64,000 nt of DNA from a virus, in IMG/VR virus record IMGVR_UViG_3300008116_000054, positions 1 through 64,000 of that record. One strand, written 5' to 3'. The translations under genes were made by a program, and so were the position numbers. The notes under the pieces are model-generated. The model did not search any database, had not been told where the DNA came from, and saw only the letters and a program-made list of their open reading frames with translations. Positions 1-63,999 of this stretch are shown one piece after another (the stretch's first letter is position 1; each line of letters opens with the position of its first letter).

Positions 1-240
1 ATCAAGGATGGTATTGAAGTTTGTCGGTTTGAAAATAAGGCTACAGCTTCAAAAGAGTTAGGGATATGTCAGTCAAACATATCTTCCGTCTTAGCGGGCA
101 GAAGAAAGTCTGCTGGCGGTTATGTCTTCAAATATATTTCCGAATCTAATGATCCTCAAACCGGAGGTCCAACATATGTCTCAAGCTCAGCCCAGCACAG
201 TGACGAAGAAGGCCGCACTCCAGAAAGCGATCAAGGATGA
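1..240 (+). CDS. HNH-type homing endonuclease, C-terminal fragment (NUMOD1-like tail)
   Basis: Only the 3' end of this gene is in the window; frame 1 is open from base 1 to the TGA at 238-240. The visible 79 residues begin with a NUMOD1-like DNA-binding motif of the kind found at the C-terminus of HNH and GIY-YIG homing endonucleases: a V..F.....A...LGI..SNIS.VL.G.RKSAGGY pattern in residues 6-47. The tail overlaps the first 65 bases of the next gene, which has its own Shine-Dalgarno at 163-167, so the endonuclease gene sits directly on the start of the VWA gene. The nuclease domain itself lies outside the window, so its class is inferred from the tail. Confidence 0.6.
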   Translation: MKDGIEVCRFENKATASKELGICQSNISSVLAGRRKSAGGYVFKYISESNDPQTGGPTYVSSSAQHSDEEGRTPESDQG

Positions 241-8467: not shown

Positions 8468-8710
8468 ATGACACTCAGAGACATCGGCAAGGTCCAGGAA
8501 ATGCTCAGCGAGATCATCCCGGCGATCAAGGACCACATCGAGCGAGACGACATCGACAGCATGATGCTGATAATCAACGGCAAGAACGACAGCGGTATAC
8601 ATCAGTACAAGTTCATCCCTGCGGGCACCAACTACCTCGAGTGGATCGGCATACTCGAGTTCCTGAAGCAGGAGATGATGATGCGGGCCGACGACGAACT
8701 ATACGAGTGA
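8468..8710 (+). CDS. Hypothetical protein, 80 aa
   Basis: ATG 8468 after AGAGGC at 8459-8464. Helix, strand (MMLIINGKND), strand, helix order, acidic. No family recognised; part of a run of small genes leading to the dCMP hydroxymethylase-like gene. Confidence 0.6.
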   Translation: MTLRDIGKVQEMLSEIIPAIKDHIERDDIDSMMLIINGKNDSGIHQYKFIPAGTNYLEWIGILEFLKQEMMMRADDELYE

Positions 8711-8720
8711 GGATAAAGCG

Positions 8721-8948
8721 ATGTCTGACTCTGAGAGCAAGATCAACATCCCGTACTCGCCGGGCTACACCTGGTACCTGGACGAGCTGGACCGCGACAC
8801 CGGCCACGGCAGCTCCCCCATGGACCAGTACTTCTCCAAGTACTGGAAAGAAGGCGACGCCGAGGTCTGCAAGCACGAGTGGGTGAACGTCTCCTTCAAC
8901 TTTGTTAAAGAAGCCTGCAAGCACTGCGGGATCGACAGGAAGGAGTGA
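8721..8948 (+). CDS. Small zinc-binding protein, 75 aa
   Basis: ATG 8721 with GAGGAT upstream. The last 28 residues hold CKHEW...CKHCG, a C-x-H / C-x-x-C arrangement seen in many small phage zinc proteins. The first half (PYSPGYTWYLDELDRDTG) is acidic. Role unknown. Confidence 0.65.
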   Translation: MSDSESKINIPYSPGYTWYLDELDRDTGHGSSPMDQYFSKYWKEGDAEVCKHEWVNVSFNFVKEACKHCGIDRKE

Positions 8949-8951
8949 GCG

Positions 8952-9722
8952 ATGAAGATCTACGGCAACATCCATGAAGCGTACCTAGGCACCATAGAAG
9001 ACGTGCTCGAGAACCCAGACTTCGTGTGTGCCCCGCGCGGGCAGAAGATCCTCGAGAAGACCGACTACACGTTCAGGGTCACGTCTCCTGTCTCAGAGCC
9101 CGTCGTCACCAGAGACCCAGAGCGCAACCGAGTGATCGCCGAGTACACGGCAAAAGAGATGGATCTGTACGATTCCTGCTCTAACTCGGTCGAGGACTTC
9201 GCCAAGGCTTCTAAGTTCTGGGAGAAGATCGCTAACCCAGACGGGACGATCAACTCTGCTTACGGGTACCTGATCTGGAAGAACGCCAGTCAAGGCAACG
9301 CACTCTACGAGTTCGGCGATCCGTATGACGGGAAGTTTCCGCTGTTCAGCGAAGCGCACCGTACTCCCTGGGAATGGGCCAAGCAGGCCCTCATCGCCGA
9401 CAAAGACACGCGGCAAGCCGTTATGGCATTCGCTCTACCTGAGCACCGCTGGGTGGGCAACAAGGACCAGGTCTGCACGCTCCACGGCAACTGGCTTATT
9501 CGCGAAGATCGCCTGAGTTTATCGATAGTTATGAGGAGTAACGATTTGTCCAAGGGGTTGGTGTATGACCTGTCGTGGTTCGTCGGCCTGATGGATCGAC
9601 TGGTTCAAGAGCTCAAACCAACGTACCCTAACTTAACCAAAGGCACCTACACCCACACTGCGCACTCCATGCACATCTACGAGCGCGATCTTCCTCAGAT
9701 GAAGAAGATGCTTGGCATTTAG
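8952..9722 (+). CDS. dCMP hydroxymethylase-like enzyme (thymidylate synthase family)
   Basis: 256 residues, thymidylate synthase fold. C175 (QVCTLHGNW) is the expected nucleophile; R195-S196-N197-D198 matches the RS.D phosphate/substrate motif; THTAHSMHIYE at 234-244 matches the HxY substrate loop. Thymidylate synthases have Asn eight residues after that Asp (Asn177 in E. coli); here the residue is D206. Asp at this place is the known signature of T4-type dCMP hydroxymethylase, which makes 5-hydroxymethyl-dCMP with methylene-tetrahydrofolate. A dCMP deaminase is encoded at 15793. The gene's 3' end is the left copy of a 34-bp direct repeat: an HNH gene was inserted there, changing the end from ...MLGWP to ...MLGI. 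Confidence 0.8.
   Translation: MKIYGNIHEAYLGTIEDVLENPDFVCAPRGQKILEKTDYTFRVTSPVSEPVVTRDPERNRVIAEYTAKEMDLYDSCSNSVEDFAKASKFWEKIANPDGTINSAYGYLIWKNASQGNALYEFGDPYDGKFPLFSEAHRTPWEWAKQALIADKDTRQAVMAFALPEHRWVGNKDQVCTLHGNWLIREDRLSLSIVMRSNDLSKGLVYDLSWFVGLMDRLVQELKPTYPNLTKGTYTHTAHSMHIYERDLPQMKKMLGI
9682..9715 (+). repeat. 34-bp direct repeat, left copy
   Basis: Identical to 10604-10637. It encodes the last residues of the hydroxymethylase-like protein (RDLPQMKKMLG region). Flanking bases differ on both sides. The 922-base distance between copies contains the HNH gene and its control region. Confidence 0.95.
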
Positions 9723-9735
9723 GTCTAATGATCTG

Positions 9736-9781
9736 ATATAATATCATTAGATCTCATGGAGAAAATCTAATGATATTATAT
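9736..9781 (+). promoter_or_regulatory. 17-bp hairpin over the HNH start, with a late-type promoter box in its 5' arm
   Basis: Arms 9736-9752 and 9765-9781 are perfect reverse complements (17 bp), with a 12-base loop that contains the Shine-Dalgarno GGAG (9758-9761). The start codon ATG (9770-9772) is inside the 3' arm. The 5' arm holds TATAATAT (9737-9744); a transcript begun about 6 bases after it would lack the 5' arm and leave the start codon free. A third copy of the arm core (TCTAATGAT, 9724-9732) could pair with the middle segment 9743-9751 instead. This is the design of the hairpin that restricts T4 I-TevI to late transcripts. Confidence 0.7.
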
Positions 9782-10624
9782 GAAAAGACAGTAGAAGTAA
9801 AAGGATATGATGTCAAGGAAGCTAGAGCTTATGACAAGATATGTGTTAAATGCGATGAATGCGACAAAGAATACGAAAAGATAAGTCGCGATCTTCCTGC
9901 CTGGAACGGAAGATGCGCGTCGTGTATAGGTAAGATTCGCGGCAAGATGATGGGCGATAAGTTCGGTAAGACCCAGAAGGTAAAGGGCAAATGCGCCTCA
10001 TGCGGAGATCCGGTAAGAACTTCATTAAAATACTGCAGCAAAGATTCGTGCCAGATCCTCAAGGCTGAGCGTATGTCAGCTAGATCTAGAGGCTCTTCTA
10101 ATCCTGCTTGGACCGGTAAGCATGTATGCGAATGCGGCAAAAAGAAATCACATGGCGCAAAGATGTGCAGATCATGCTCCTTTAGTTCAGGCCTACGTAG
10201 CAGTGTCAAAAACGGCAGGTTCATAAGCAACGATAGGGATTTTTATTTAGAATGCGTCAAGGCTAGAAAGATGCTCTCTGGCATTATGGCCAATGTATGT
10301 AAGTCAGGCGGCATCACTAAGAATAAAAATAAAACCACAGAGATGCTCGGATACTCTTGGAAAGAGTTTAAAGAGCACATAGAGGCCCAGTTCAATGAAG
10401 ACATGTCTTGGAGCAACTATGGACGTGAAGGTTGGTCGATAGACCATATCCTGCCTGTTGACTGGTTTATAAAAAACAAAGTATTTGATGTAAAAATAGT
10501 GAACAGTCTTAGAAACTTACGCCCTTTGAATCATAAAGTCAACATGCGTAAAAGCAATCAAATTGAGATTGAAGATCCTTGGCTGCTGTACGAAGAGCTT
10601 AAAAGCGCGATCTTCCTCAGATGA
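9770..10624 (+). CDS. HNH homing endonuclease inserted at the end of the hydroxymethylase-like gene
   Basis: 284 residues. Several zinc-ribbon pairs in order: CVKCDECD (about 25-32), CASC, CASCGD, a C..DSC, then CECGKKK and CRSC; followed by a helical region and an HNH block (DMSWSNYG at about 222-229, GWSIDHILP at about 232-240, NLRPLNHKVNM near 262-272). The final codons and stop lie inside the right copy of the 34-bp repeat. AT-richer than its neighbours. It carries its own late-type promoter box and start-codon hairpin, so it behaves as a self-contained cassette. Confidence 0.9.
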   Translation: MILYEKTVEVKGYDVKEARAYDKICVKCDECDKEYEKISRDLPAWNGRCASCIGKIRGKMMGDKFGKTQKVKGKCASCGDPVRTSLKYCSKDSCQILKAERMSARSRGSSNPAWTGKHVCECGKKKSHGAKMCRSCSFSSGLRSSVKNGRFISNDRDFYLECVKARKMLSGIMANVCKSGGITKNKNKTTEMLGYSWKEFKEHIEAQFNEDMSWSNYGREGWSIDHILPVDWFIKNKVFDVKIVNSLRNLRPLNHKVNMRKSNQIEIEDPWLLYEELKSAIFLR

Positions 10625-10637
10625 AGAAGATGCTTGG
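10604..10637 (+). repeat. 34-bp direct repeat, right copy
   Basis: Identical to 9682-9715. Continuing in the hydroxymethylase frame past this copy gives MLGWP then TGA (10645-10647), which is presumably the ancestral end of that gene. Recombination between copies would remove the cassette cleanly. Confidence 0.95.
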
Positions 10638-10667
10638 TTGGCCTTGAGCAAAGTTAAATAAAGCGAG

Positions 10668-10703
10668 TATAACCATCCTTTAGGTGCTTTTACTAAAGGA
10701 TGG
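10668..10703 (+). promoter_or_regulatory. Late-type box plus hairpin masking the ribosome site of the ClpP-like gene
   Basis: TATAACCA at 10668-10675 follows AG, like the other late-type boxes. Arms 10673-10683 and 10693-10703 are perfect 11-bp reverse complements (CCATCCTTTAG) with a 9-base loop. The 3' arm includes AAGGATGG, continuous with the Shine-Dalgarno GGAG (10702-10705) for the ATG at 10711. A start near 10682 would remove almost the whole 5' arm and unmask the site. Confidence 0.6.
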
Positions 10704-10710
10704 AGAAGTC

Positions 10711-11481
10711 ATGAAGAAATTAAGATTGTTTGTAATGCTTGTGGCCAGTCTTGTGGCTTCTTCGGCGCTTGCCGATAAGCACAAGGGACCGACGTACCTC
10801 AAGGTGCCTAGCGGAGAAAGAACCGTAGCCGTCATCGGTGCGATAGGCGGCAACGCTATAGATCTGGCTCACAAGATCGAGCGTCTTTCGGCAAAGTCTA
10901 AGGACCCGATCTACGTGATCATCAACTCGCCCGGTGGATCCGTCTTCGCGGGATATCAGCTGACTCAAGCGCTTGATATCGCAAGAGCAAGAGACGTTCC
11001 GGTGATCTGCGCCGTAGGCACGATGGCGGCTTCCATGGCCTTCCAGCTTCTGCCGCACTGCACCGAGCGGTACGCCATGCCGAACTCGCTGCTTCTGTTT
11101 CACCCGTCGAGGGTGTTCGTGATGCAGGCAGTTATCACCGCAGACATGGCAGAGATCCTGGCCAGAGAGATGCGCAAGATCGACCGCAGAGGACTGGACG
11201 AGATCTCTGTGATGATCGCAGGAAGAAGGTTCGATGCCCTAAGCGAAAACGGAAAGAAGTGGTTTAAGCTCCATTTCGACCAGGAGACCATGTGGATCGC
11301 CTCCGATCTCGTTTCCGAAACGAACGATGGGTGGCTCAAGATCGTCGACGTGATCGATGCACCAGACGGGATCTTCAGCGAAGAAGTCAGCAGACAGAGC
11401 ATCAAGGCAAGCAAAGAGAAGCAGGCAGAGCTGGATCTTAAGGAAAGACCCGACAAAGCTGACTACATCATAATCAACTGA
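10711..11481 (+). CDS. Secreted ClpP-like serine protease
   Basis: 256 residues from ATG 10711 (GGAG at 10702). Residues 1-21 are a Sec signal peptide (basic MKKLR, hydrophobic core, ASSALA then D). The mature part has the ClpP/SppA crotonase-like fold: INSPGGSVFAGYQL at 71-84, TMAASMAFQL at 104-113 with the nucleophile S108, and LLLFHPSR at 127-134 with the catalytic H131. ClpP is normally cytoplasmic and works with an unfoldase; an exported version cannot use ATP there, so it may cut periplasmic or membrane peptides, as SppA does. Role in envelope remodelling, lysis or superinfection exclusion is inference. Confidence 0.85.
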   Translation: MKKLRLFVMLVASLVASSALADKHKGPTYLKVPSGERTVAVIGAIGGNAIDLAHKIERLSAKSKDPIYVIINSPGGSVFAGYQLTQALDIARARDVPVICAVGTMAASMAFQLLPHCTERYAMPNSLLLFHPSRVFVMQAVITADMAEILAREMRKIDRRGLDEISVMIAGRRFDALSENGKKWFKLHFDQETMWIASDLVSETNDGWLKIVDVIDAPDGIFSEEVSRQSIKASKEKQAELDLKERPDKADYIIIN

Positions 11482-11494
11482 CAAGAGGCTGCAC

Positions 11495-12001
11495 GTGGGC
11501 ACAGACGTACATTTCTTCCTGGAGAAACGCACGAACAAAGGTCCATGGCAGCTCGAGGACGGCAAGAAAAGCCCAGAAAGCGATCACTACGGCTCGGTCA
11601 TCTCCCTCGAAGGAAGATCTTACGTCTTCTTCGGTCTCCTTTCCGGCGTAAGATCCTACCACAGCCCCATATATCCAGCAAGAGGCATACCTGAAGGCAC
11701 GTGCGAGTTCGTGAGCGAGCTGTGGGCCGACTCCCACGAGTGCGGCTTCCACAGCTCGTCGTGGCTGACGCCTAAGGAGCTTAAGCGCGTGCTCGACCGA
11801 TACTTCAAGATCGTCAAAAAAGATCCCGAGTGGTCTGACACCGTACCGCTTGACATCGGCCCCTTCGACCAACCCTGGAGGATCGACTACTCGGCCATCG
11901 ACTACGTCAACAAGCTCATCGACTGGGAGAAGGCAGAGAACCTTCTTCTGGGCTGCAGCAACAAGACCGAGTTCAGGTTCGTGTTCTGGTTCGACTCCTA
12001 G
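11495..12001 (+). CDS. Conserved phage protein of the MG(C/T)D(I/V)H type, 168 aa
   Basis: GTG start at 11495. N-terminus MGTDVHFFLEKR, an R.Y.FFGLLSGVR segment and ECGFHSSSWLTPKEL follow the pattern of a protein family common in phages (MGCDIH...; HS.SWL..EL) whose function is unknown. Length normal for the family. Lies directly after the exported protease, but no functional link is visible. Confidence 0.65.
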   Translation: MGTDVHFFLEKRTNKGPWQLEDGKKSPESDHYGSVISLEGRSYVFFGLLSGVRSYHSPIYPARGIPEGTCEFVSELWADSHECGFHSSSWLTPKELKRVLDRYFKIVKKDPEWSDTVPLDIGPFDQPWRIDYSAIDYVNKLIDWEKAENLLLGCSNKTEFRFVFWFDS

Positions 12002-25300: not shown

Positions 25301-28300
25301 TTACGAGTAGCGGTACATCACGCGAACGACGTCGCCTGCGACCAGCTCTTCTTCTTCACCTACGACAAGGCTTCCTGCGAAGGTGATGCGAGTTACGCCA
25401 CCTACAACCGATACTGTGTAGTCGTCACCTGCGTGAGCGACCAGACGATCAACGGTCATCAGGATGGATTTCTCGATCGCCTGATGAGAGAGGTTGATGT
25501 ATCCGTTGGTGATGTTTGTCGAGCTGAGGACGAACTTCTCTTTCTCGTGTACGATCGCTTCGAGTGCGTCGATCGCGCTCTGGAGAGCGGCGTCGGCGGT
25601 CGAGCGGGTCGAAGCTTCGGCTGCAACTTCTGAATCGGTGTATGCTTTAGCATCTTTGAGTGCTTTAGCAACCGAACCAGCGACGTTGTCTGCACCTTCG
25701 AGGACGTCTAAACGGCCATCAAGAGCGTTGTCAGCAGCGATACGGGCAGATTCTTCGGCGGTGACTTCTGAATCGGTGTAAGCCTTAGCATCTTTGAGTG
25801 CCTTAGCAACCGAGCCAGCGACAGTGTCTGCGCCTTCGAGGATGTCTAAGCGGCCGTCGAGGGCGTCGATGTTGCTCTGAAGCACGCCGTCAGCAGCGAT
25901 GCGGGCGGTCTCTTCTGCGGAGACTTCCTGATCGGTGTAGGCTTTGGCATCTTTGAGCGCTTTGGCTACGGAGCCAACGACGTTGTCTGCGCCTTCGAGG
26001 ACATCAAGTCTTCCGTCGAGGGCGTTATCTGCAGCGATACGAGCAGATTCTTCTGCGTCGATGTTGCCTTGCAGCGTGCCGTCTGCCGCGATGCGAGCAG
26101 ATTCTTCAGCAGAAACCTCAGAGTCGGTGTATGCTTTGGCATCTTTCAATGCTTTGGCTACAGAACCAACTACTGTATCAGCGCCTTCGAGGACGTCAAG
26201 TCTTCCATCGAGTGCGTTATCGGCGGCGATGCGAGCAGATTCTTCAGCGGAGACAGCGGCGATACGTGCAGAGGTCTCTACGTCGGTGTAGTCTTTGGCG
26301 TCTTTGAGTGCCTTAGCAACGGAACCAACTACTGTATCAGCGCCTTCGAGGACGTCTAAGCGACCGTCGAGAGCGTTGTCGGCGGCGATACGTGCGGATT
26401 CTTCTGCGGAGACTGCAGCGATACGAGCAGATTCTTCTGCGTCGATGTCACCCTGAAGGGCATTGTCGGCAGCGATTCGTGCGGACTCTTCTGCGGTGAC
26501 TTCCTGGTCAGTGTAAGCTTTGGCGTCTTTCAAGGCCTTAGCTACGGAACCGACTACGGTATCAGCGCCTTCGAGGACGTCTAAGCGACCATCGAGGGCA
26601 TTGTCAGCCGCGATACGAGCAGATTCTTCGGCGTCGATGTCACCCTGAAGGGCATTGTCGGCAGCGATACGGGCGGACTGCTCGCTGGCGATGTTGTTTG
26701 CAACGGTGACTGCAAAGTTCTCGTCTTCGTTGATGGCGTCAGCGAGTTCTTTGAGTGTGTCGAGCAGAGCAGGAGCACCGTTTACTAGAGCTGAAACTTC
26801 AGAGTCAGTGTAAGCCTTAGCATCTTTCAGTGCTTTGGCTACGGAACCGACTACGGTGTCTGCACCTTCAAGGACGTCGAGGCGGCCATCAAGAGCGTTG
26901 TCGGCAGCGATACGTGCGGACTCTTCTGCAGAGACAGCTGCGATACGTGCGGATTCTTCTGCGGAAACCTCAGAGTCGGTGTAGTCTTTGGCATCTTTGA
27001 GGGCTTTGGCTACGGAACCTGCTACGGTATCGGCACCTTCAAGGATGTCTAAGCGGCCATCGAGGGCATTGTCAGCAGCGATGCGGGCGCTTTCTTCTGC
27101 GTCTACTTCCTGGTCTGTGTAAGCCTTAGCATCCTTGAGGGCCTTAGCTACGGAACCAACTACAGTATCGGCACCTTCAAGGGTGTCAAGACGACCGTCG
27201 AGGGCGTTATCGGCTGCGATACGAGCAGATTCTTCAGCAGAGACTGCAGCGATGCGGTCGCTGATCTCTTGGTCGAGGTCGCCGCGGAGGTCGAGGGTGT
27301 AGCCGTCCAAGGAGTCGATCTGACCCTGAAGGTCGGTGTCGATGGCGTCTGCGTATGCTTTGGCATCTTTCAGTGCTTTGGCGATAGAGCCAACTACCGT
27401 GTCGGCACCTTCGATGATGTCGAGGCGGCCGTCGAGGGAGTTATCAGCTGCGATACGGGCAGATTCTTCAGCAGAGACTGCAGCGATACGGGCGGACTCT
27501 TCTGCGGAAACCTCAGAGTCGGTGTAGTCTTTGGCATCTTTCAAGGCCTTAGCTACGGAGCCGGCTACGGTATCAGCGCCTTCGAGGATGTCAAGTCTTC
27601 CGTCGAGGGCGTTGTCGGCTGCGATACGGGCAGATTCTTCGGCAGTGACTTCTTGATCGGTGTAGTCTTTGGCATCTTTCAATGCCTTAGCTACGGAACC
27701 AGCAGTACTGTCGTTGCCTTCGAGGATGTCTAGGCGTCCGTCAAGGGCGTTGTCTGCGGCGATACGAGCGCTTTGCTCGGCGTCGTCGGCTGCGACACGT
27801 GCAGATTCTTCGGCAGAGACCTCAGAGTCGGTATAAGCCTTAGCGTCTTTCAGCGCTTTGGCTACAGAACCTACTACAGTATCAGCACCTTCAAGGATGT
27901 CTAAGCGACCGTCAAGGGCGTTGTCAGCGGCGATACGGGCTGATTCTTCTGCGTCGAGGTCTAAGCCGCTTGCGTTTTGAAGGGCGGTGATGTCGCCGCT
28001 TAGTCCTGCGATCTGGTTAGCAATCGAAGTTGCGAAGCTCTCGTCGTCGCCGATAGCTGCAGCCAGCTCGTTCAGCGTGTCGAGGAGGCCTGGGGCTCCA
28101 TCAACGAGGTCTGAGATCTTTTGGTCAGCGTAGGCTTTGGCATCTTTAAGCGCTTTGGCTACGGAACCAGAAGTACTGTCGTTGCCTTCGAGGACGTCTA
28201 AGCGACCATCAAGTGCATTGTCGGCTGCGATACGGGCAGATTCTTCTGCGGCGATCGCTGCTGCACGAGCAGATTCTTCGGCGTTGATCTCGTCGTCTAC

Positions 28301-28513
28301 GTACTTCTTGCGAACGAGGTCGTTCTGTGCGCTTGGGTCAACAGACAACTTAGGAGCGATGCTGAACTGCCACTCGTTGCTGCTGTTGAAATGAAAAAGG
28401 GTACGGTCTGAACCGTCAGTGTTCTTTACTCTAAACCCCTGACCGTTCAACAGTTGAAGCTTAAGGCCGTCTATGGCATTATCTTCAATAAACTTCTTTT
28501 TAATTTGTGACAT
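25301..28513 (-). CDS. Tail fibre with 14 tandem coiled-coil repeats
   Basis: 1070 residues from ATG 28513 (GGGAG upstream; a GTG at 28543 is less likely). N-terminal about 75 residues (EDNAIDGLKLQLLNGQGFR..., SSNEWQFSIAPKLS) resemble phage fibre proteins that present a decorated core. The body is 14 copies of a roughly 45-65 residue unit with AEESARIAADNALDGRLD, LEGADT and GSVAKALKDAKAYTD, forming a long triple coiled coil. The C-terminus (about 85 residues, ending VAGDVVRVMYRYS) is a beta domain like that of the next protein. Probably a long virion fibre; the tip domain would bind the receptor. Confidence 0.85.
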   Translation of the reverse strand: MSQIKKKFIEDNAIDGLKLQLLNGQGFRVKNTDGSDRTLFHFNSSNEWQFSIAPKLSVDPSAQNDLVRKKYVDDEINAEESARAAAIAAEESARIAADNALDGRLDVLEGNDSTSGSVAKALKDAKAYADQKISDLVDGAPGLLDTLNELAAAIGDDESFATSIANQIAGLSGDITALQNASGLDLDAEESARIAADNALDGRLDILEGADTVVGSVAKALKDAKAYTDSEVSAEESARVAADDAEQSARIAADNALDGRLDILEGNDSTAGSVAKALKDAKDYTDQEVTAEESARIAADNALDGRLDILEGADTVAGSVAKALKDAKDYTDSEVSAEESARIAAVSAEESARIAADNSLDGRLDIIEGADTVVGSIAKALKDAKAYADAIDTDLQGQIDSLDGYTLDLRGDLDQEISDRIAAVSAEESARIAADNALDGRLDTLEGADTVVGSVAKALKDAKAYTDQEVDAEESARIAADNALDGRLDILEGADTVAGSVAKALKDAKDYTDSEVSAEESARIAAVSAEESARIAADNALDGRLDVLEGADTVVGSVAKALKDAKAYTDSEVSALVNGAPALLDTLKELADAINEDENFAVTVANNIASEQSARIAADNALQGDIDAEESARIAADNALDGRLDVLEGADTVVGSVAKALKDAKAYTDQEVTAEESARIAADNALQGDIDAEESARIAAVSAEESARIAADNALDGRLDVLEGADTVVGSVAKALKDAKDYTDVETSARIAAVSAEESARIAADNALDGRLDVLEGADTVVGSVAKALKDAKAYTDSEVSAEESARIAADGTLQGNIDAEESARIAADNALDGRLDVLEGADNVVGSVAKALKDAKAYTDQEVSAEETARIAADGVLQSNIDALDGRLDILEGADTVAGSVAKALKDAKAYTDSEVTAEESARIAADNALDGRLDVLEGADNVAGSVAKALKDAKAYTDSEVAAEASTRSTADAALQSAIDALEAIVHEKEKFVLSSTNITNGYINLSHQAIEKSILMTVDRLVAHAGDDYTVSVVGGVTRITFAGSLVVGEEEELVAGDVVRVMYRYS
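25600..28310 (-). repeat. Tandem repeat array in the fibre gene
   Basis: Fourteen units recognisable by the AKALKDAKAYTD-coding block. Synonymous positions vary between units, which limits recombination between them, but adjacent units remain similar enough for unequal exchange that would change fibre length. Confidence 0.85.
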
Positions 28514-30407: not shown

Positions 30408-30902
30408 TCAGTATCCGAACTCTTCCTCTGGTTGTTTGACTTGAGCTTGCTGTGCTTGCTCGATTCTTCTATGGTTGTACTCAAGCAGCATGGCGATCTC
30501 GCTGTCGGACGGCTGACGCATAGACACATGGCGCATAAGATCTGCAGCCTCTGCATCTGTGAGAGTCTTGTGCAGCTCTGCCTTGGAAGCGTACTTTGCC
30601 TTTATAGACTCCAGTTCCTCAGAAGTCATGTCTTTCATGGTCTTGACGGGGTTTTCCTTGGAGCGCTTCTTGTCTGCTTTTGCCTGGGCGGACGCCTGCT
30701 GGCTAGCGGTACCCTGCAGAGCAGAAGTGTACTCGCGGACGCCTTTGTTCTGCCCTACGTGCTCCAGCTCTTCGCCGGTCCTGGTCTGCTTGCGCTTGAT
30801 GTTGTCTACAGGGTTGTAGAGACCCATGTCCTTGGGGCCGTAGTTGGATTTAACAAGAGACCATTGGCCATTTGGCGATGTGATTATTTTTTCATTAGAC
30901 AT
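30408..30902 (-). CDS. Virion-associated protein with NGQW motif, 164 aa
   Basis: Starts MSNEKIITSPNGQWSLVKSNYG. The NGQW(S/A)LxK motif recurs in two other proteins nearby (31521 and 32517). The rest is charged and helical, with a Gln/Ala-rich end. Its ATG (30902) is overlapped by the end of the HNH gene at 30895. Confidence 0.6.
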   Translation of the reverse strand: MSNEKIITSPNGQWSLVKSNYGPKDMGLYNPVDNIKRKQTRTGEELEHVGQNKGVREYTSALQGTASQQASAQAKADKKRSKENPVKTMKDMTSEELESIKAKYASKAELHKTLTDAEAADLMRHVSMRQPSDSEIAMLLEYNHRRIEQAQQAQVKQPEEEFGY

Positions 30903-31476
30903 ATTTATTACTCTTTATAAGATTGTCTTTCGCCCACATTGGTTGCAAATTAGTATAATGACATGCTTTTCTTAGTTGATCTGAATCGGTTAGATCAAAT
31001 TTACTTAATGGAACTATATGATCTATGTGCCAGCCAGTTAGCGACCAATTTTCCCATGTCATGCCAGGTTGAAATTTAGACTCCAAATAAGTCTTTAATT
31101 CCTCAATTGTACACCCAACATCTCTAACAGCAGAGCCTGATTTAGCTTTGTTCTTTATGGCGCTATTTAATCTTTTTCTTAACAATTTAGTCAACTTATA
31201 TTGTATATCAGAGCGCCTTCTTTCAAGAGATCTTAACCTACATGCCTCTTGGTGTTTGAGCTTATTTTCTAAATAATACTGTTTGTTTTTAAGTAAATGA
31301 TTTTCTCTATTTGCTTTATAATGCTCTTTTGCATATTCTGATCTTTTGTCTTTGTTCGCAGCATGATATGCTTTTTGATATTCAGAAAAACAAGCTTTAC
31401 ATTTAGTTAAACTATAACTATAGAAACAATCTATAGATTTTGTATTTTTACAATTGTTGCAAACAATTACCTGCAT
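30895..31476 (-). CDS. Free-standing HNH homing endonuclease
   Basis: 193 residues. Zinc ribbon CNNCKNTKS...CKACF (C6, C9, C31, C34 approximately), a lysine-rich linker and the HNH block: SAVRDVGCTIEELKTYLE, PGMTWENW, WHIDHIVPL and HYTNLQPMW. Strongly AT-rich compared with the flanking genes, a sign of recent arrival. It stops 8 bases inside the next gene. A TATAAATA box 46 bases upstream of its ATG and AAGGA give it its own expression. Confidence 0.92.
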   Translation of the reverse strand: MQVIVCNNCKNTKSIDCFYSYSLTKCKACFSEYQKAYHAANKDKRSEYAKEHYKANRENHLLKNKQYYLENKLKHQEACRLRSLERRRSDIQYKLTKLLRKRLNSAIKNKAKSGSAVRDVGCTIEELKTYLESKFQPGMTWENWSLTGWHIDHIVPLSKFDLTDSDQLRKACHYTNLQPMWAKDNLIKSNKYV

Positions 31477-34566: not shown

Positions 34567-35928
34567 TTACCCCTTCTTCTCTGCCATCTTGGCTGCGTCT
34601 ATGCGGGACATTCGCTCGACCTGCTCTGGCGAGGCTCGGCGTCTTATGACTGCTTTCGCTGGCTCAGCCGGCGCTGCGGGTTTCGGCTCTGCCGACACTG
34701 CTACGGGCGCTGCGGGTGCTTGCTGTGCCTGCTTTGCGCGAACCTGAGGAGCAAGCTGGCTCTCGATGAACTTCTTGTGGGCACCGGCAAACTGCATCGC
34801 AGGATCTTTTGTCGTAGCGTACTGCATGCCGCCTTCCTCGTCCTGCTTTAGGCCCATGTGCTCGGCCACCGCGCGACCGGTCATCGGTGCAGATTCGAAC
34901 TCCTCGCCAGACGCAGACTCGACCGGCATGCCGCCGTGAACGAGATGCGCCTTGATCTCGTCGACGTGTTGACGACGAGCGGCCTCAGATTCCTTGAACT
35001 GCTTTCCGGCCTGGTTTACGTCGACTATCGAGGCGTCGTGCTCTGGGTTCTTGGAGCGCCAGTCGGTTTTCCAGGCTTGGACCGCTTTGTGTCGCTCCAT
35101 GGGAGATTTTCCCTTGAGCTCGTCCGAAGCAAGGAAATCTGAGAACTCTTTGTCGAACTTTGCCGATCTGCCCTGGTGAGCTGCCTTCATCTGCGCCGAA
35201 GCGTGCTTGATGGGATTCTTCTCTGGCTCGAGGTATTTTGCCGTCTTGGTGTGGTAGTTGTCGAGCCACTGTCTGGCGACGTCGCGCATCTCGCCCATCA
35301 TCTTGTCTGACATCATGGTTGGCTTTACACCGCTGGTCAGAGCACGCATGAAGTCGCGAGGCTCGCCGCGGCCGCCTAGTCCCTTAGACACAAGATGCGC
35401 TGCCTCGCGAGGATGGTATCCCTCCTGGATCAGCTTGTTCATCTCGGCCATCTCCTGAGGAGTGTGGTTCTTGCTCATCTCCCACTCGCGAGACGATGAC
35501 TTCTTGCTGTCTTTGCGCAGGTCTTCTGCGATCACCTGACGAAGCGCGCTAAGTGCACCATACAGGCCCTCTAGCTCGCGCGCCTTAGCGAGCTTCAAGT
35601 TAGGCTTTGGCTTGTTCTTTGCGGTCTTGATGTCCGCTAAAGCCTGATGCTGCTCATGTGTGAGCTTCTTTGCATTGTTGTCGTTCCACCACGAGTGAAG
35701 AACCTGATGAACCTCGTCTGGCATGACGGTCTTTTTTCCTTGGCGCTCAAGGGCGCGCTCGATGAGCACGTTCCTGTCCTCGCCCTCGACCTTTGACATG
35801 CCTCCAAGTTCCTTGAAGATGTGCATTATCAAGGGCCACCGCTTTCCTTTGCCCTGCTTCTCTGCGATGTCTTTTGCTCGCTCCCACTTCTTCTCTTGGG
35901 CTTGAGTCTCTACGACACCTTTTGGCAT
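34567..35928 (-). CDS. Large helical virion-region protein, 453 aa
   Basis: Begins MPKGVVETQAQEKKWERAKD, then KQGKGKRWPLIMHIFKELGG, a KW.AK....G..W..I..I.K..GG pattern seen in phage structural-region proteins. Mostly helical and charged, with an LIQEGYHPREAAHLVSKG motif and a Pro/Ala-rich linker before a basic C-terminus. Could be an internal, tape-like or inner-head protein. Function unknown. Confidence 0.55.
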   Translation of the reverse strand: MPKGVVETQAQEKKWERAKDIAEKQGKGKRWPLIMHIFKELGGMSKVEGEDRNVLIERALERQGKKTVMPDEVHQVLHSWWNDNNAKKLTHEQHQALADIKTAKNKPKPNLKLAKARELEGLYGALSALRQVIAEDLRKDSKKSSSREWEMSKNHTPQEMAEMNKLIQEGYHPREAAHLVSKGLGGRGEPRDFMRALTSGVKPTMMSDKMMGEMRDVARQWLDNYHTKTAKYLEPEKNPIKHASAQMKAAHQGRSAKFDKEFSDFLASDELKGKSPMERHKAVQAWKTDWRSKNPEHDASIVDVNQAGKQFKESEAARRQHVDEIKAHLVHGGMPVESASGEEFESAPMTGRAVAEHMGLKQDEEGGMQYATTKDPAMQFAGAHKKFIESQLAPQVRAKQAQQAPAAPVAVSAEPKPAAPAEPAKAVIRRRASPEQVERMSRIDAAKMAEKKG

Positions 35929-38848: not shown

Positions 38849-40390
38849 TTAAACACAATACATAACATACTTTGCCTGACCTGCGTCATATAGCCTTGTC
38901 CATCCAAGTTCTTCTGCGTGTTGTTTCTCTGACAGCAGCCTGTCGTCCATATTTGCGCGACAACGCAGTCTATTAAACGTATTATGATTGTCTGTCCACT
39001 GCCATCCTAAGGTCACAGACATCAAATTAAAACCTACAGCCTTTAAGCTGGAACCGTCAGCGTAGCGCAGATCTACAAACGACTGAATGAATCGTGGTTT
39101 AGATAACGTTTCTATACGCTTCAGAAGACGAGACAATCCGCCCTGAATCTGAAAACCAATCTTTGTTGCGACTCTGACCAAGTCTATGCCATCCTTGTGA
39201 CGACGATACGTTATAACCATCATTGGTTCTGAGTTAAGGACCAAAGCAATAGCAGTCGAGCATCTTGCTGAGCCCATAAGATGGTTGCTTTGCATAAAGG
39301 CAGCGGCATCGTCGACCGAGATGCTTTTAACTTCAAGTTTTCTAGCTCCTATCTTTTTGCTTAAACCCAATACATTGGCGACCATAGAACAGACTATGTC
39401 AGGAGTATTCTTTATTTCGTCCTGGCGAAACTGAAGTAGACGCACGTTGTTTTCTTTATATGTATATGCCTTTTTAATGTGGTATTGTTTGTCGCGCATC
39501 GAGTGTGAATATAGTCCGTCTACATCTACATATATAGTTTTATTGTCGTGCTTCAATATGATATCTGGCCTATATCTAATACCTTTTTCCAGCATCTCTG
39601 GGACGCCAAGATTGTAAGCCTCTGCATCTAACCCGCTGTTCTTAAACATGTTTATTGACAGAAGCTCCAAAGAAGAACGATGTTTATGATAATTATCCAA
39701 CCAGTCTTGCGCAGCGTCCCATCCAAGCTCTCTAGCGACATTGCGAAGCGAAGTAGGCCTTACTCCTTTTTCTTTACAGGAATCGACGACTATCCTGCCA
39801 TCTGGAAAAGATTGAATTCCCTTTTCTCTTAGAGTTTGAGATATAGAACTTGCAACCTTCATTGCTACGTCTTTGTTGAGCATAGCATTTTCTACACCGT
39901 AGCGTTCTAAGTTTGTCATAGACATCTTTGCGAACACTTCTTTATTTTGACTTGGAGCAGAAGTTCCGTAGCGGTCAATATTGGTAGACTTGATCTTATC
40001 CTTGATATCAGGGCTGCATGCAGGAGCTGCTCCGCCGTATTTGAGCTGATTAGTGGACTTTCTTTTGTTTTTGGTCTGTTGAGACTTGGAGGCTTCGACT
40101 GCCCTTTTTAAGATCTCTGGTCTGTTAGGATCAGACTTCATAGATTGTCTTACTTTTTCAACAATATCTTCTCTGTACATTGGATTGTTTTCAGAAAAGA
40201 ACTCTGATTTGTAGCAGCCACAAGACTGAGACTTACCGTGAAGAATAGTGTTGGGCGTCTTTATCAATCGCTCTGTTCCACAGTCACACCTACAGATCCA
40301 TCCAACCTGGCGACCGTCGTCTCCAAGTTTCTTTTCTACGAAAGTCCATCTATTGTATTTATCGTTTGCTTTTGCTGTAAGTCTAGACAT
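38849..40390 (-). CDS. Vsr-like homing endonuclease with zinc and NxxRYG repeats
   Basis: 513 residues. N-terminal zinc motif CRCDCG...SCGC (about 33-58), then repeats of (T/S)N..RYG...A (about 134-170), then a Vsr-like PD-(D/E)XK nuclease: YRPDIILK, VDVDGLYSH, LLQFRQDEI (about 270-325), and a C-terminal domain with GARKLEV, F...NHLMGSA and VDLRYADGSSLKAVGF. Same family as the gene at 53235 and as endonucleases reported with split inteins. AT-rich, own promoter box (TATAATAA, 40413-40406). It sits between the glycosyltransferase and the major capsid gene. Confidence 0.85.
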   Translation of the reverse strand: MSRLTAKANDKYNRWTFVEKKLGDDGRQVGWICRCDCGTERLIKTPNTILHGKSQSCGCYKSEFFSENNPMYREDIVEKVRQSMKSDPNRPEILKRAVEASKSQQTKNKRKSTNQLKYGGAAPACSPDIKDKIKSTNIDRYGTSAPSQNKEVFAKMSMTNLERYGVENAMLNKDVAMKVASSISQTLREKGIQSFPDGRIVVDSCKEKGVRPTSLRNVARELGWDAAQDWLDNYHKHRSSLELLSINMFKNSGLDAEAYNLGVPEMLEKGIRYRPDIILKHDNKTIYVDVDGLYSHSMRDKQYHIKKAYTYKENNVRLLQFRQDEIKNTPDIVCSMVANVLGLSKKIGARKLEVKSISVDDAAAFMQSNHLMGSARCSTAIALVLNSEPMMVITYRRHKDGIDLVRVATKIGFQIQGGLSRLLKRIETLSKPRFIQSFVDLRYADGSSLKAVGFNLMSVTLGWQWTDNHNTFNRLRCRANMDDRLLSEKQHAEELGWTRLYDAGQAKYVMYCV

Positions 40391-42733: not shown

Positions 42734-43117
42734 TTATTGGCCCATCATCTTCATATCTGGGTGACCAGCAAGACGAGCGAGTTCGGTCGTCGTGTCACCG
42801 GCTTCGAGGACTACGTCGTTAGTGAAGCGGGTGCAGCAAGCGAGTACTGCAAGGTCTGAGGCGTTCACAAAGATGGCTGCGATGCTGTTTTCGCCGGCTG
42901 CACCTTTGATCTTGATCGTCCCTGGGTTGCCGATGCCGATACCTAGGAAAGGAGATGTTGTGTCGTTGATGCCGCCCATCGGGGACTGGATCGACGCGTC
43001 TGTGTAGCTGATGGTCAAACCAGCTGCTGTAACTGAGGTAGCATTTCGAGTAGCCGCAACGCCTACTGCGTCGAGGTTTCTCTTAATTTTGTCGAGTACT
43101 TGAACTGGATTGCTCAT
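42734..43117 (-). CDS. Small virion protein (decoration-like), 127 aa
   Basis: ATG 43117 with AAAGGAG. Helical start (VQVLDKIKRNLDAVG), then beta-rich (GTIKIKGAAGENSIAAIFVN) and a short C-terminal helix. Directly upstream of the scaffold and capsid genes. Head decoration or minor capsid role is inferred from position. Confidence 0.55.
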   Translation of the reverse strand: MSNPVQVLDKIKRNLDAVGVAATRNATSVTAAGLTISYTDASIQSPMGGINDTTSPFLGIGIGNPGTIKIKGAAGENSIAAIFVNASDLAVLACCTRFTNDVVLEAGDTTTELARLAGHPDMKMMGQ

Positions 43118-43235: not shown

Positions 43236-43880
43236 TTAAATTAGTCTGTCTTTCTTGGAAAGATTGTCAAACTCCCACAGCGGTTGTAAGTTTTTATAAT
43301 TGCAGGCTTTGTTGAATTCGTCAGGATTCGACAGGTCGAACGAGCTCAATGGAATGATGTGGTCTATGTTCCATTTTCCATCGCCTTTGCCCCAGTTGTC
43401 CCACGACATACCAGGCTGGAACATCTCGGCCAGGTGCGACTTGAGCTCCTCTATCGAGCAGCCAAGCGAGGACACCGCCGATCCGGTCTTGGCGCAGTTT
43501 TTTATCGCGGAGTTTAAGCGAGACCTTATCACCTTCAACATCCTGAAGTTTAGATCATTTTCATAGCGGTCTTTATAGTACTGCTTGCCGTTCTTCTCGT
43601 ACCAGGCGCGATTCAGCCCTTTTATTGTATCTTTGTTCTCTGATCTCCACTTGGCATGTTTGGCCAGCAGCATATCTTTGTTGTCTTTGTAGTAGTCTGA
43701 TCTTATCTTGCGCTTCTCTTCTTCGGTCATCGGCGTCGGTATGTCGCCCTTGCTGTAGTTTTGCTTATAGAAAGCCCTATTGCACTGCTTGCAGGAAGGG
43801 CGCTTTCCGTCGGATCTTTTGTTGTCTCCTGCAAAACTATCTAAACTCTTAGACTCTTTACACTTACTGCACGTCTTCAT
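43236..43880 (-). CDS. Free-standing HNH homing endonuclease
   Basis: 214 residues. Zinc ribbon CSKCKESKS...CKQC, YYKDN-type linkers, then SAVSSLGCSIEELKSHL, PGMSWDNWG, WNIDHIIPL and NYKNLQPLW. Close relative of the genes at 6544 and 30895. Placed between the prohead protease and the decoration/scaffold/capsid genes. Confidence 0.92.
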   Translation of the reverse strand: MKTCSKCKESKSLDSFAGDNKRSDGKRPSCKQCNRAFYKQNYSKGDIPTPMTEEEKRKIRSDYYKDNKDMLLAKHAKWRSENKDTIKGLNRAWYEKNGKQYYKDRYENDLNFRMLKVIRSRLNSAIKNCAKTGSAVSSLGCSIEELKSHLAEMFQPGMSWDNWGKGDGKWNIDHIIPLSSFDLSNPDEFNKACNYKNLQPLWEFDNLSKKDRLI

Positions 43881-43887
43881 GCTATGA

Positions 43888-44775
43888 TCACTTGTGCGAT
43901 ATAAAGAACTTTGCCAATGTGTCGAACGGCAGACTCTTGCCGCAGGATCGGCATTTCACTTGGTATTTCATGTACGGCTGCTCTTTTCCGCAAGCCGGGC
44001 AGTCGATATACTTGAAAGTCCTTGATCCTTCTACGCTCTCGGTCTGAAACACTCCGCCCCCGGTGAGGCTGGTGGGCGATCCTGCTCCGCCGTAACCAGC
44101 GGTTAGGGCTTTATCTAATCTACTGTTTTTTTTTAAGCCATCAACTATGTCGTGGATCTTCTCGATGTTGCCGCGGATCTTGGCGATCGAGGACCTCTGG
44201 GAAAGGTCGATAAGGGCCGGGACGTTGACTGTAGCATACGGCGCGTAGGATTTGATCAGGTCGATCTCGTCGAGCGTTGGGGCAGACTTAGCGAGGTCTA
44301 GGCCTTCGACTAGGGTGGCGTTGTTTGCCGGCGTAAACGTAAGCGCTAGCCCCCTGATCTTTGTCCTGGCCAGTATACGTTCGTCCTTCTTGCCGCGTTC
44401 GACGATGCCGCCTTCGACCGAGCATTTCATCTTAAGCGGAGAATCAGTTCTGAACTGGTGCTTGATTATAGCGGCAGCGGCTTTGGCAGAGCGATGGTCT
44501 TCGTCGTCGAAGAGTAGACCTTCTGTGTAGATATACGGTGCCTTTATCTTGTTCCAGTAGTATCTGTGACGATCGGTATCGCAGTCTTCTAAACCAAAGA
44601 TCTTCTTTACACCAGTAATACGACCGATTACATCAGGTAACTTATTAGAATGGTTATCATTTATTATGCCACGACCAGCTTCAAGTTCTGAAATATCAGC
44701 GCCTCCAACATCAAGGATCTCGCCTTGTGTATCTCGTAGCTGGGATCCAGCAACTGCATCAAATTTTGTGGCCAC
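43888..44775 (-). CDS. Prohead protease with C-terminal cleavage-like motif and zinc ribbon
   Basis: 295 residues, GTG start 44775. Caudovirus prohead protease fold: H42 in NDNHSNKLPDVIG, and S119 in MKCSVEGGIV as the nucleophile, at the spacing of this family. After a helical linker, residues 222-249 (KALTAGYGGAG, PTSLT, GGVFQTESVE) match the N-terminal region of the major capsid protein, and residues 259-282 form a zinc ribbon (CPACGKE...CRSCGK). The protease matures the prohead by cutting capsid and scaffold. The extra C-terminal region is unusual. Confidence 0.85.
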   Translation of the reverse strand: MATKFDAVAGSQLRDTQGEILDVGGADISELEAGRGIINDNHSNKLPDVIGRITGVKKIFGLEDCDTDRHRYYWNKIKAPYIYTEGLLFDDEDHRSAKAAAAIIKHQFRTDSPLKMKCSVEGGIVERGKKDERILARTKIRGLALTFTPANNATLVEGLDLAKSAPTLDEIDLIKSYAPYATVNVPALIDLSQRSSIAKIRGNIEKIHDIVDGLKKNSRLDKALTAGYGGAGSPTSLTGGGVFQTESVEGSRTFKYIDCPACGKEQPYMKYQVKCRSCGKSLPFDTLAKFFISHK

Positions 44776-44797: not shown

Positions 44798-44805
44798 TCT
44801 TTATA
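44798..44805 (-). promoter_or_regulatory. Possible late-type box TATAAAGA
   Basis: CTATAAAGA on the minus strand at the end of the HNH gene, about 23 bases before the prohead protease GTG. Leaves the ribosome site GGTAGGGAG in the leader. Confidence 0.35.
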
Positions 44806-45583
44806 GATTGTACCACTTAGGTTTATCTATCCACTCTCGCCCCAGAAGTTTTTGGCATATGTCTTCTCCCTCTGGGGTTTTAAAATCATTCTTAGTCCTG
44901 TTATCGATCGCCCACATCGGCCTCAAGTTTGTGTAATGCTGTAACTTTATTAGCTCTTCTTCGTTCTGCGCTTGAGAGCAAGGACATATATGATCGATGT
45001 CCCAGCCATCTGGTCCACGTTTGCCTTTATTTTTCCAACTCATGCCAGGCTGCCACAGCGACTCTATGTGCTTAAGCACTTCGTCTATAGGCATACCAAG
45101 CATATCCGCGGATTTTTGAGTTTTCTTATATTGCTTGCCTATAGCCATGCCGATGCACGTCCGCAGCGATCTTTTGTAATAGACATGATTCCTAGAGACC
45201 GGTCTACAACACGACGATATGCCGCCGCACTTAAAGGATGACTCGTTGAAGCTTTTCTCGCTGCCGCAAACTTCGCAGCGACAATTGTACGTGCGACCAG
45301 AATAAGAGAAAACCACCCATGAACCGTTAGCAAGACCGACTACAGTAGAGCCGCGGGTTGAGTTGTGTCGTTCTATTGTTTCTCTTATTTTTAAGCAGCC
45401 GCAAGATTTAGACTTGCCGTATCGCAGGCAGGCATAGCTTGTTTCGTGTTCTTTTCCGCAGTCGCATAAGCATTTAAAGCGTCTATTTTGACGATCGGTA
45501 CTTGTTTCTTCTACGACAACCAGTTGACCAAATCTAGTGCCAGCTTCTATCTCTACGTAGTTCCAAGCTTTCCTCATATACAC
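44801..45583 (-). CDS. Free-standing HNH homing endonuclease with CDCG domain
   Basis: 260 residues. N-terminal zinc motif FKCLCDCGKEHE...SKSCGC (about 37-64), as found with AP2-type mobile genes, a second Cys cluster, then an HNH block PGMSWKNKG, GWDIDHICPCSQAQNEEEL and HYTNLRPMW. Its last 60 residues closely match the HNH gene at 54977. Own promoter box TATAATAA upstream. Sits directly upstream of the prohead protease. Confidence 0.9.
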   Translation of the reverse strand: MYMRKAWNYVEIEAGTRFGQLVVVEETSTDRQNRRFKCLCDCGKEHETSYACLRYGKSKSCGCLKIRETIERHNSTRGSTVVGLANGSWVVFSYSGRTYNCRCEVCGSEKSFNESSFKCGGISSCCRPVSRNHVYYKRSLRTCIGMAIGKQYKKTQKSADMLGMPIDEVLKHIESLWQPGMSWKNKGKRGPDGWDIDHICPCSQAQNEEELIKLQHYTNLRPMWAIDNRTKNDFKTPEGEDICQKLLGREWIDKPKWYNL

Positions 45584-47749: not shown

Positions 47750-48568
47750 TCAAGCTCGCTTCTCGCGGACTCGGTCTGCTAGTGCCTTAAGTATGGCGAT
47801 GTCTTCTGTAGACAGCTGAGGAACGGATCTGCCGGTACCCAGCAGCTGGGCCAGCTCTACGTTCAAGAACTCTCTGATCTTGTTCTCGATGATCTCGTAC
47901 TCGTTGCCCTTGCGCTTGATGATCCTTGACGACAGGATATCGTTGATCGCGTTGGCTTGCTGCAGCTTGAGCTGCTCTGGCGTTAGCTTGGATGTAGTGT
48001 CTATCTTCACGACGTTTGACTCTGGAAGTTTTTCCTGTGCCTGTGCCATATCTTCTACCTTCTCGGGTGTTGACGTCTTGGCTTCATTGAGTATCGGGGC
48101 GATGTCTTGCTTAGTCAGTTTTACGAAACCGTACTTATAGGCAAGCGCATCGTAGAGCTGAATGGCAGAATCAAAGTCTGTTCGCGTCAGGGGCTCGTTG
48201 TTGTCGACGCACCTTTTCCAGTGCGCCTCGATGTTGTCATCGTACATCAGGATGCGGGTGACGTCGTTCTGCTGCTCGATCTCGCGAAGGATCTCTAGAT
48301 CGTCGTCTGAGAGTAGCGGATTTCGCCGGTATACGTAAGGCCACACGCACTCACCGTAGTGCGATCTGTCTAGTACGACATCTTGCCCAGACAATGACAC
48401 TAGGGTATCGATCATATCGTCAAGATATGATGGCCCAGTGTAGCCTGGCTGGTAGTATTTTTTATCAGGAGCGGAGAAATGAATGTAGCGGTAGCCTTGG
48501 GCCTCATATGCTTTCGCAAGCGTACTCTTGCCCGAACGATCGATGCCTTCGATTATGATCAGAGCCAT
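47750..48568 (-). CDS. Deoxynucleoside/nucleotide monophosphate kinase-like protein
   Basis: 272 residues from ATG 48568 (GGAGG five bases upstream; ATG 48580 is an alternative). Walker A GIDRSGKST at 8-16, then a DVVLDRSHYGECVW substrate/Asp-Arg region near 63-76, as in thymidylate-kinase-fold enzymes. The first 160 residues are the kinase; the rest is a helical extension with no recognised domain. Likely supplies dNDPs or dTDP during replication. Confidence 0.75.
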   Translation of the reverse strand: MALIIIEGIDRSGKSTLAKAYEAQGYRYIHFSAPDKKYYQPGYTGPSYLDDMIDTLVSLSGQDVVLDRSHYGECVWPYVYRRNPLLSDDDLEILREIEQQNDVTRILMYDDNIEAHWKRCVDNNEPLTRTDFDSAIQLYDALAYKYGFVKLTKQDIAPILNEAKTSTPEKVEDMAQAQEKLPESNVVKIDTTSKLTPEQLKLQQANAINDILSSRIIKRKGNEYEIIENKIREFLNVELAQLLGTGRSVPQLSTEDIAILKALADRVREKRA

Positions 48569-54893: not shown

Positions 54894-54915
54894 TATAATC
54901 CCCTTAGTGCCATAG

Positions 54916-54923
54916 GGATTATA
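54916..54923 (-). promoter_or_regulatory. Late-type promoter box TATAATCC
   Basis: GTATAATCCC on the minus strand; a start about 6 bases on gives a short leader with AAGGGG before TTG 54893. Would transcribe the endonuclease and the downstream IntC-terminase gene. Confidence 0.5.
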
Positions 54924-54976
54924 CCCGATATTTATCAATTAGCCTTGATTACGGTGCATTTTTTTTACAAAGCAGC

Positions 54977-55774: not shown

Positions 55775-56054
55775 GCGCTCGCGTTGAGGTGCTTTCCAAG
55801 GATGAGATCTCGTCGGCGTCGGTGAGGTGCTGAAGCTCGATCCATCCGCGCTGGGTCCAGACTTTGTGGTCGAGGGTTCCTTCGATGACTCTTCCATCTT
55901 CTAGCTCTATCCTTATGCACTCGGCGTCTTCTAGCTCGTTGCCGAGGACCTCGACGAAGCCGGTGGTGTCTTTGATAAAATCGCCTGGCTTGAAATCTGC
56001 CAATGATCTTATTGTACCATGCACATCGGTTGACGTAGCGGAGGAAACCAGGCA
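55755..56054 (-). mobile_element. Split intein 2, N-terminal half (IntN)
   Basis: 99 residues, C653 to the stop. Block A CLVSSATSTDVHGTIRSLAD, FKPGDFI, and block B EGTLDHKVWTQRGWIEL (T-x-x-H). The last dozen residues (SSLESTSTRAHAEVKA) are likely a disordered end. The preceding extein residue is A652. Fits the length of natural IntN parts. Confidence 0.93.
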
Positions 56055-63950: not shown

Positions 63951-63991
63951 GTTAAGCTCCTAAGTTTAGTGAATAGACACAATGTCTAATG

Positions 63992-63999
63992 ATATTATA
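63992..63999 (-). promoter_or_regulatory. Late-type promoter box TATAATAT of the SSB operon
   Basis: GTATAATATCATTAGACATT on the minus strand at the window end. The 15 bases TATAATATCATTAGA are identical to those at 9737-9751 upstream of the HNH gene at 9770. Confidence 0.55.

Follow-up and report, generated by a model that had tools for sequence, protein, structure and literature searches.

In the phage record IMGVR_UViG_3300008116_000054, the start codon of an HNH-family endonuclease gene lies in a perfect 17-bp hairpin whose 5′ arm contains a promoter box. It is probable that this hairpin is a lock against read-through RNA, in which the predicted folds hide the start of the gene in RNA running in from the upstream gene and leave it free in RNA from the box. 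The lock is supported by the sequence itself, by the predicted folds, by a specific pairing found in 13 records, and by the turnover of the stems in orthologues. The window analyzed here is bases 1–64,000 of this partial record of 108,514 bases.

The hairpin and its promoter box

The features around the start of the HNH gene are as follows.

8952..9722, plus strand: upstream gene, thymidylate synthase superfamily (Pfam PF00303 1e-10, PHROG 160 2e-32)
9724..9732, plus strand: third copy of an arm sequence, TCTAATGAT, able to pair with 9743–9751 in competition with the lock (repeat search, folding)
9734..9742, plus strand: extended −10 TGATATAAT, with an expected transcription start at about 9748–9750 (sequence)
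9736..9752, plus strand: 5′ arm of the lock hairpin, with the box inside (repeat search, RNA fold)
9756..9770, plus strand: possible 4-codon minicistron, ATG GAG AAA ATC TAA (sequence)
9758..9761, plus strand: Shine–Dalgarno (SD) sequence GGAG, within the hairpin loop (sequence)
9765..9781, plus strand: 3′ arm of the lock hairpin, with the start codon 9770–9772 inside (repeat search, RNA fold)
9770..10624, plus strand: HNH-family endonuclease gene, 284 aa (phage-protein matches)

The inverted repeat of 9736–9752 and 9765–9781 is situated between the upstream gene and the HNH gene. The two arms are perfect complements, and the SD sequence in the loop and the ATG in the stem lie exactly where an earlier sequence-only reading of the locus had placed them. 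Among perfect inverted repeats with a loop of up to 30, none in the whole 108.5-kb record is longer, and the next are 11 bp in length. In 3000 dinucleotide shuffles of the 130 bases around the hairpin, no 17-bp arm arose (maximum 13). Besides this record, the HNH gene occurs in two others, at 100% identity in each, and the same two have exact copies of the hairpin core sequence. Since the copies found are identical, without a diverged relative, there is no covariation at the HNH locus. The stop codon of the possible minicistron overlaps with the HNH start codon (TAATG), and an SD sequence of its own is not clear.

The box TATAATAT is found at 9737–9744 within the 5′ arm, with TGA before it. 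Seven copies exist in the window against 0.68 expected, two of which are the two arms of the HNH hairpin. The sequence-only reading was right about the position of the box in the upstream arm and went too far in calling it late-type, as the preceding TG makes it also an extended −10. A T4-like late box, TATAAATA, was rejected as the HNH promoter; it has three copies in the window (0.54 expected), none of them at the HNH gene. No sigma factor was found in the partial record. Two relatives have sigma70-like genes (G005 74428–75120 and G013 34740–35414), and the G005 protein is weakly similar to the sigma factor of Mx1, the nearest named relative looked at, with which 16 of 117 ORFs are shared. 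The upstream gene and the HNH gene lie on the same strand with a gap of 47 nt, and no terminator was predicted in 8500–11500, a range spanning both genes.

Some other promoter-like sequences were observed. On the minus strand, TATAATAT at 9773–9780 within the 3′ arm may be a divergent promoter, antisense to the upstream gene. The promoter region of an SSB-like gene (window 63985–63999, minus strand) shares the 15-nt TATAATATCATTAGA with 9737–9751 of the 5′ arm. Of 199 other box segments, one gave the same opening energy at the HNH start, presumably that of the SSB-like gene. A recurrent CCGAATCAAAT/CCGAATCTAAT element lies 5′ of plus-strand genes (G002 31125, 32747, 52466, and 56134, plus strand; window 141–155, plus strand) and is a possible second promoter class.

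Predicted folds and the proposed mechanism

The RNA of 9736–9800 was predicted to fold with −19.0 kcal/mol (z −5.8), and the RNA from 9749 with −3.8 kcal/mol (z 0.6), that is, without notable structure. In a separate comparison of short RNAs, opening the SD sequence and the start codon would cost 12.4 kcal/mol in the read-through form versus 4.7 kcal/mol from the expected start. The predicted folds thus agree with the earlier proposal that read-through RNA is locked while RNA from the box is free, and the layout recurs in relatives. In RNAs ending at 9830, the opening energy is 10.1–12.8 kcal/mol for 5′ ends at 9600–9720 versus 7.6 kcal/mol for a 5′ end at 9749, so that in longer RNAs the lock adds only about 2.4–5.2 kcal/mol over the RNA starting at 9749. 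By prediction, the longer transcript thus forms a helix that hides the SD sequence and the start codon of the HNH gene.

With the 5′ end of such an RNA placed at 9736, the opening energy is 16.5 kcal/mol. This suggests that pairing between the 5′ arm and the third copy, which lies further upstream, makes the lock weaker. The reverse complement of TCTAATGAT is present at 9743–9751, and 9724–9739 repeats 9766–9781 (88% over 16 nt); altogether, 9724–9781 holds three copies of TCTAATGAT or its complement. When each fold was imposed on 9700–9800, the third-copy alternative gave −18.2 kcal/mol versus −26.8 kcal/mol for the lock, which bears out the alternative pairing that had been suspected from the sequence. 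The stop codon of the upstream gene is separated from the third copy by 1 nt.

The lock may operate as follows. RNA running in from the upstream gene would hold both arms, fold, and hide the HNH start codon, and little HNH protein would therefore be made from it. RNA from the box in the 5′ arm, expected to start at about 9749, would lack most of that arm and should be translatable. Since the first half of the hairpin lies within the gene's own promoter, probably only the RNA from that promoter would be translatable. The HNH gene would thus be expressed on the schedule of its own promoter, although it is located directly behind another gene without a predicted terminator between them. Pairing of the third copy with the 5′ arm would loosen the lock, while a ribosome ending at the upstream stop codon (9720–9722) would cover the third copy and strengthen the lock, a putative form of coupling.

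Candidate locks at other genes in the record

Similar layouts were found at other genes of the record.

10673..10703, plus strand: second candidate lock, with a GTATAAC box and perfect 11-bp arms at 10673–10683 and 10693–10703 (repeat search)
25301..28513, minus strand: tail gene preceded by a TAGAAT box, its SD sequence covered by a hairpin that two relatives retain (sequence, folding)
43888..44775, minus strand: head maturation protease gene whose start resembles a lock, costing 6.6 kcal/mol more to open in read-through than in local RNA (folding)
47750..48568, minus strand: thymidylate-kinase-like gene with a fold of −24.8 kcal/mol, the box in the loop, and the SD sequence in the 3′ arm (folding)

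The arms of the second candidate lock reach the SD sequence of a ClpP-like gene starting at 10711. Among the 11 boxed genes of the record, five differ by at least 6.6 kcal/mol and six by between −0.3 and 1.1 kcal/mol. Earlier tests on this record alone were weak or mixed, giving p 0.28 with a fixed segment and p 0.007 with another choice of segment. In counts of perfect stems in the record, only those of at least 8 bp stood out (3 seen versus 0.22 expected).

Other observations were made in the window. Genes for HNH/homing endonucleases or endonuclease VII-like proteins are abundant on the minus strand (30895–31476, 38849–40390, 43236–43880, 44801–45583, 53235–54938, 55755–58010, and 61729–62412). 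The gene of the 892-aa terminase large subunit (50579–53257, minus strand) possibly carries an intein; residues 262–365 of the protein have a separate PHROG 85 match. The leaders of 42734–43117 and 62901–63950 (both minus strand) and of their G002 orthologues have hairpins just past the expected start with the SD sequence free, and a GAATG...CATTC leader hairpin is conserved in G002.

A swap test across related records

Because of the similar layouts at other genes, related records were fetched. Twelve were obtained via the upstream gene (12 of 35 loci found), and the test set consisted of 13 records; G001 was not counted, since it is almost identical to the phage of the window. By a crude ORF-and-SD rule, 1741 genes were called, 200 of which have a TATAAT-like box 20–45 nt upstream. 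For each of these, two versions of the read-through RNA were folded, one carrying the 12 nt that natively run from the box to the expected start and one carrying the corresponding 12 nt from a different gene of that phage.

With its own segment, the mean opening energy of the SD sequence and start codon was 6.37 kcal/mol versus 5.60 kcal/mol after swapping (sd 0.10, z 7.6, 0/120 swaps; 200 genes in 13 records, which are related and hence not fully independent). When the swap was limited to the 6 nt after the box, z was 8.2 (0/30). In the 124 genes where both halves could be swapped, the first 6 nt after the box gave z 4.0 versus 2.8 for the next 6 nt. Swapping the 24 nt upstream of the box had little effect, the observed mean being reached by 5 of 40 swaps. 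After removal of the genes that have a TATAAT box, six pseudo-boxes gave z values from −2.1 to 1.6; by this exclusion, TAATAT fell from 4.2 to 1.6 and ATATTA from 2.1 to 1.2. TATAAT boxes 50–80 nt upstream gave z 0.75, with genes having nearer boxes still included. Genes differing by at least 7 kcal/mol numbered 31 of 200 versus a mean of 15.25 after swapping (largest 21). The enrichment of CTCC after the box is small (7/200 versus 2/200 before the box).

The signal is clear in 6 of the 13 records and weak or absent in the rest on their own. None of 40 swaps reached the observed value in G000, G006, G007, G008, G009, and G013, while in the others it was reached by 2 (G005), 4 (G012), 7 (G011), 10 (G010), 12 (G002), and 15 (G004) of 40 swaps; G003 has only one boxed gene in this test. 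A duplex-energy permutation within single records, with the fixed segment, gave p 0.15 for G002, 0.81 for G003, and 0.17 for G004. It was stronger for G005 (p 0.013), G012 (0.0007), and G013 (0.0077). The control segment upstream of the box gave p 0.99 in G005. In G002 the control gave p 0.0057 while the tested segment gave 0.15, which argues against the lock reading for G002.

These results bear on where the HNH transcript starts. If it started upstream of the hairpin, all HNH RNA would carry the structure and would be either always weakly translated or opened by upstream translation or by the fold with 9724–9732. The alternative fold is only about 8.6 kcal/mol weaker than the lock, a single nucleotide lies between the upstream stop codon and the third copy, and the transcription start near the box is a prediction from the sequence. 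However, there is a good extended −10 inside the 5′ arm, and the complementarity in the relatives falls mainly within the first 6 nt past the box. An upstream start is therefore considered unlikely.

Stem turnover in orthologues and the range of genes predicted to be locked

Is the predicted lock kept in orthologous genes? The sequence-only reading had called for a search for the hairpin in relatives. This search returned only identical copies of the HNH hairpin itself and, on many other genes, the same layout built from other stems. Family X consists of short proteins of unknown function and has 11 members; seven of the nine boxed ones are predicted to be locked by 5.7–13.0 kcal/mol with differing stems; the two boxed members without a lock are those of the window record and G003. 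The family X members of G009 and G011, which have no recognized box, have long hairpins over the SD sequence with a compensated pair, GGCTC/GAGCC versus AGCTC/GAGCT, read by eye from the sequences. In family A, five of eight boxed members differ by at least 4.5 kcal/mol, and the stems in G004 and G006 are ATAAAGTCT/AGACTTTAT and ATAGGGTCT/AGATCCTAT. In families Y and Z, such a difference is seen in three of four and two of two members, respectively. Since the families were picked for the locks of their members, these counts (X, A, Y, and Z) are not unbiased.

The palindrome might instead act as a DNA operator over the promoter, for example in autorepression by the HNH protein, and the RNA hairpin would then be a by-product. 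The inverted repeat covers the −10 box, the three copies of TCTAATGAT or its complement are clustered in 9724–9781, and I-TevI, which represses its own gene, binds an operator overlapping its late promoter (PMC2988022). On the other hand, the arm sequences differ among the locked genes, which argues against a common protein site; the shared feature is the complementarity to the gene's own SD sequence. It is thus quite improbable that an operator accounts for the hairpin.

The genes predicted to be locked encode endolysin (in one relative), head maturation proteases, thymidylate kinase, dUTPase, DNA ligase, DNA polymerase, and HNH endonucleases. Given this range of functions, the device is special neither to homing endonucleases nor plainly to late genes. 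A lock specific to homing endonuclease genes was rejected, as most locked genes in the relatives are not endonucleases. As a separate observation, kinase and protease genes of the relatives have a TATAAT box just about 6–10 nt before the start codon, as for leaderless RNA (strand-indexed starts G004 65163, plus; G006 155193, minus; G009 37232, minus; G010 26881, minus).

The HNH gene as part of a presumed inserted cassette

The HNH gene and its hairpin appear to lie within an insertion.

9682..9715, plus strand: first of two identical 34-bp copies in direct orientation, belonging to the 3′ end of the upstream gene (repeat search)
9716..10637, plus strand: presumed inserted cassette of 922 bp (equally 9682–10603), with the hairpin, the box, and the HNH gene (flanking repeat)
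10604..10637, plus strand: second copy of the 34-bp repeat (sequence, repeat search)

The last codons and the stop codon of the HNH gene lie within the second copy of the repeat. The upstream gene now ends in LGI, while the second copy reads into LGWP and a stop codon, followed by the ClpP-like gene. LGWP with its stop codon is likely the original tail of the upstream gene. The GC content of the cassette is 0.414 versus 0.525 for the record (20 of 1076 same-size windows are as low). At two loci of relatives (L004 and L007), the site is empty and the upstream gene is directly followed by the ClpP-like gene. The simplest reading is that the insertion gave the upstream gene an equivalent tail and that the hairpin travels inside the insert.

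An HNH domain and an empty site in relatives are what is expected of a free-standing HNH homing endonuclease, and both were found. The HNH protein has tblastn matches in 116 phage records; 2 of the 20 listed are annotated as HNH endonuclease, and the listed identities are 34–46%. It has no Pfam match above the cut-off and no PDB match. The upstream ORF is continuous and uninterrupted, and no group I intron or other known RNA was detected in the window by Rfam at the gathering score. The sequence-only reading had assigned the locus to the thymidylate synthase family; the superfamily is correct (PF00303), while the best solved matches of the upstream protein are CMP/dCMP hydroxymethylases (PDB 5jnh/5b6d/1b49), ahead of thymidylate synthases.

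Lying close inside the presumed boundary set by the 34-bp repeat, the hairpin could be an end structure or scar of the cassette without a regulatory role, but this is very improbable, since an SD sequence in the loop, a start codon in the stem, and a box in the arm would hardly be combined in a scar and relatives show this combination at other genes too.

A wider reading

If the read-through lock is extended from the HNH gene to these related large phages as a whole, the few nucleotides from the −10 box to the transcription start would widely encode an anti-SD strand directed at the gene's own start, and many individually promoted genes would be translatable only from the RNA of their own promoter. 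The chances of this seem about even. The genes concerned would be those of virion proteins, head protease, kinase, endolysin, dUTPase, ligase, DNA polymerase, and HNH endonucleases, a list to which I give the same even chance. If true, such genomes would consist of overlapping transcription units with gene-by-gene translational insulation, and the pattern would be a general means of silencing read-through RNA in compact genomes. Since the anti-SD strand would sit in the untranscribed promoter spacer, the lock can be read from DNA alone; it would then predict real promoters and translated RNAs in uncultured phages.

Comparison with known systems

In phage T4, a lock of this kind has been described for a handful of genes. 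A report of a group-wide version was not found in the literature searched, in which most subscription journals were out of reach. Nor does the available text of the phage 7-11 paper report such a lock (PMC8948821). In T4, the long transcripts of e, soc, 49, and I-TevI are translationally locked, whereas RNA from a promoter inside the structure is free in the case of e and I-TevI (PMC3014915). The present arrangement is similar in that the start would be hidden in a helix of longer upstream transcripts and the RNA of the own promoter would lack the 5′ strand. As with T4 gene e, an endolysin gene is among the genes predicted to be locked here (PMC3014915). In contrast to T4, the box resembles TATAAT rather than TATAAATA and often follows G or TG, and the phages are not T4-like by their capsid protein, whose best matches (about 30%) are Bacillus SPO1-type and Bacteroides phages.

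The same swap test was applied to T4. I-TevII, gene 26, and e rank at the top and soc ranks eighth, and the high ranks of known locks serve as a check on the test. Overall, the 26 late-type boxes of T4 gave z 1.7 (4/60 swaps), whereas in the phages studied here the fit between the box-proximal segment and the SD sequence is detectable group-wide (z 7.6).

Similar arrangements are noted for I-TevII, I-TevIII, segB, and Aeh1 mobE (PMC2988022). Like Aeh1 mobE and T4 segB as described there, the HNH gene is a free-standing endonuclease gene whose ribosome-binding site would be held in an RNA hairpin, and like mobE it is an HNH gene at a nucleotide-metabolism locus. Unlike these two, it belongs to an unrelated phage, its cassette is bordered by 34 bp that exactly duplicate the end of the neighboring gene on the 3′ side, and the start codon itself is in the stem.

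The sequence-only reading had invoked the logic of I-TevI in the T4 td intron. The regulatory logic, as predicted here, is indeed alike, and the neighboring gene belongs to the same protein superfamily. Kinship is a different matter. I-TevI belongs to the GIY-YIG nucleases and is encoded within the group I intron of td, while the protein studied here is an HNH endonuclease, no intron was found by Rfam, and the neighboring ORF is whole and closer to hydroxymethylases. The logic is what these phages have in common with T4; they differ from it in the box, in the phage group, and in breadth.
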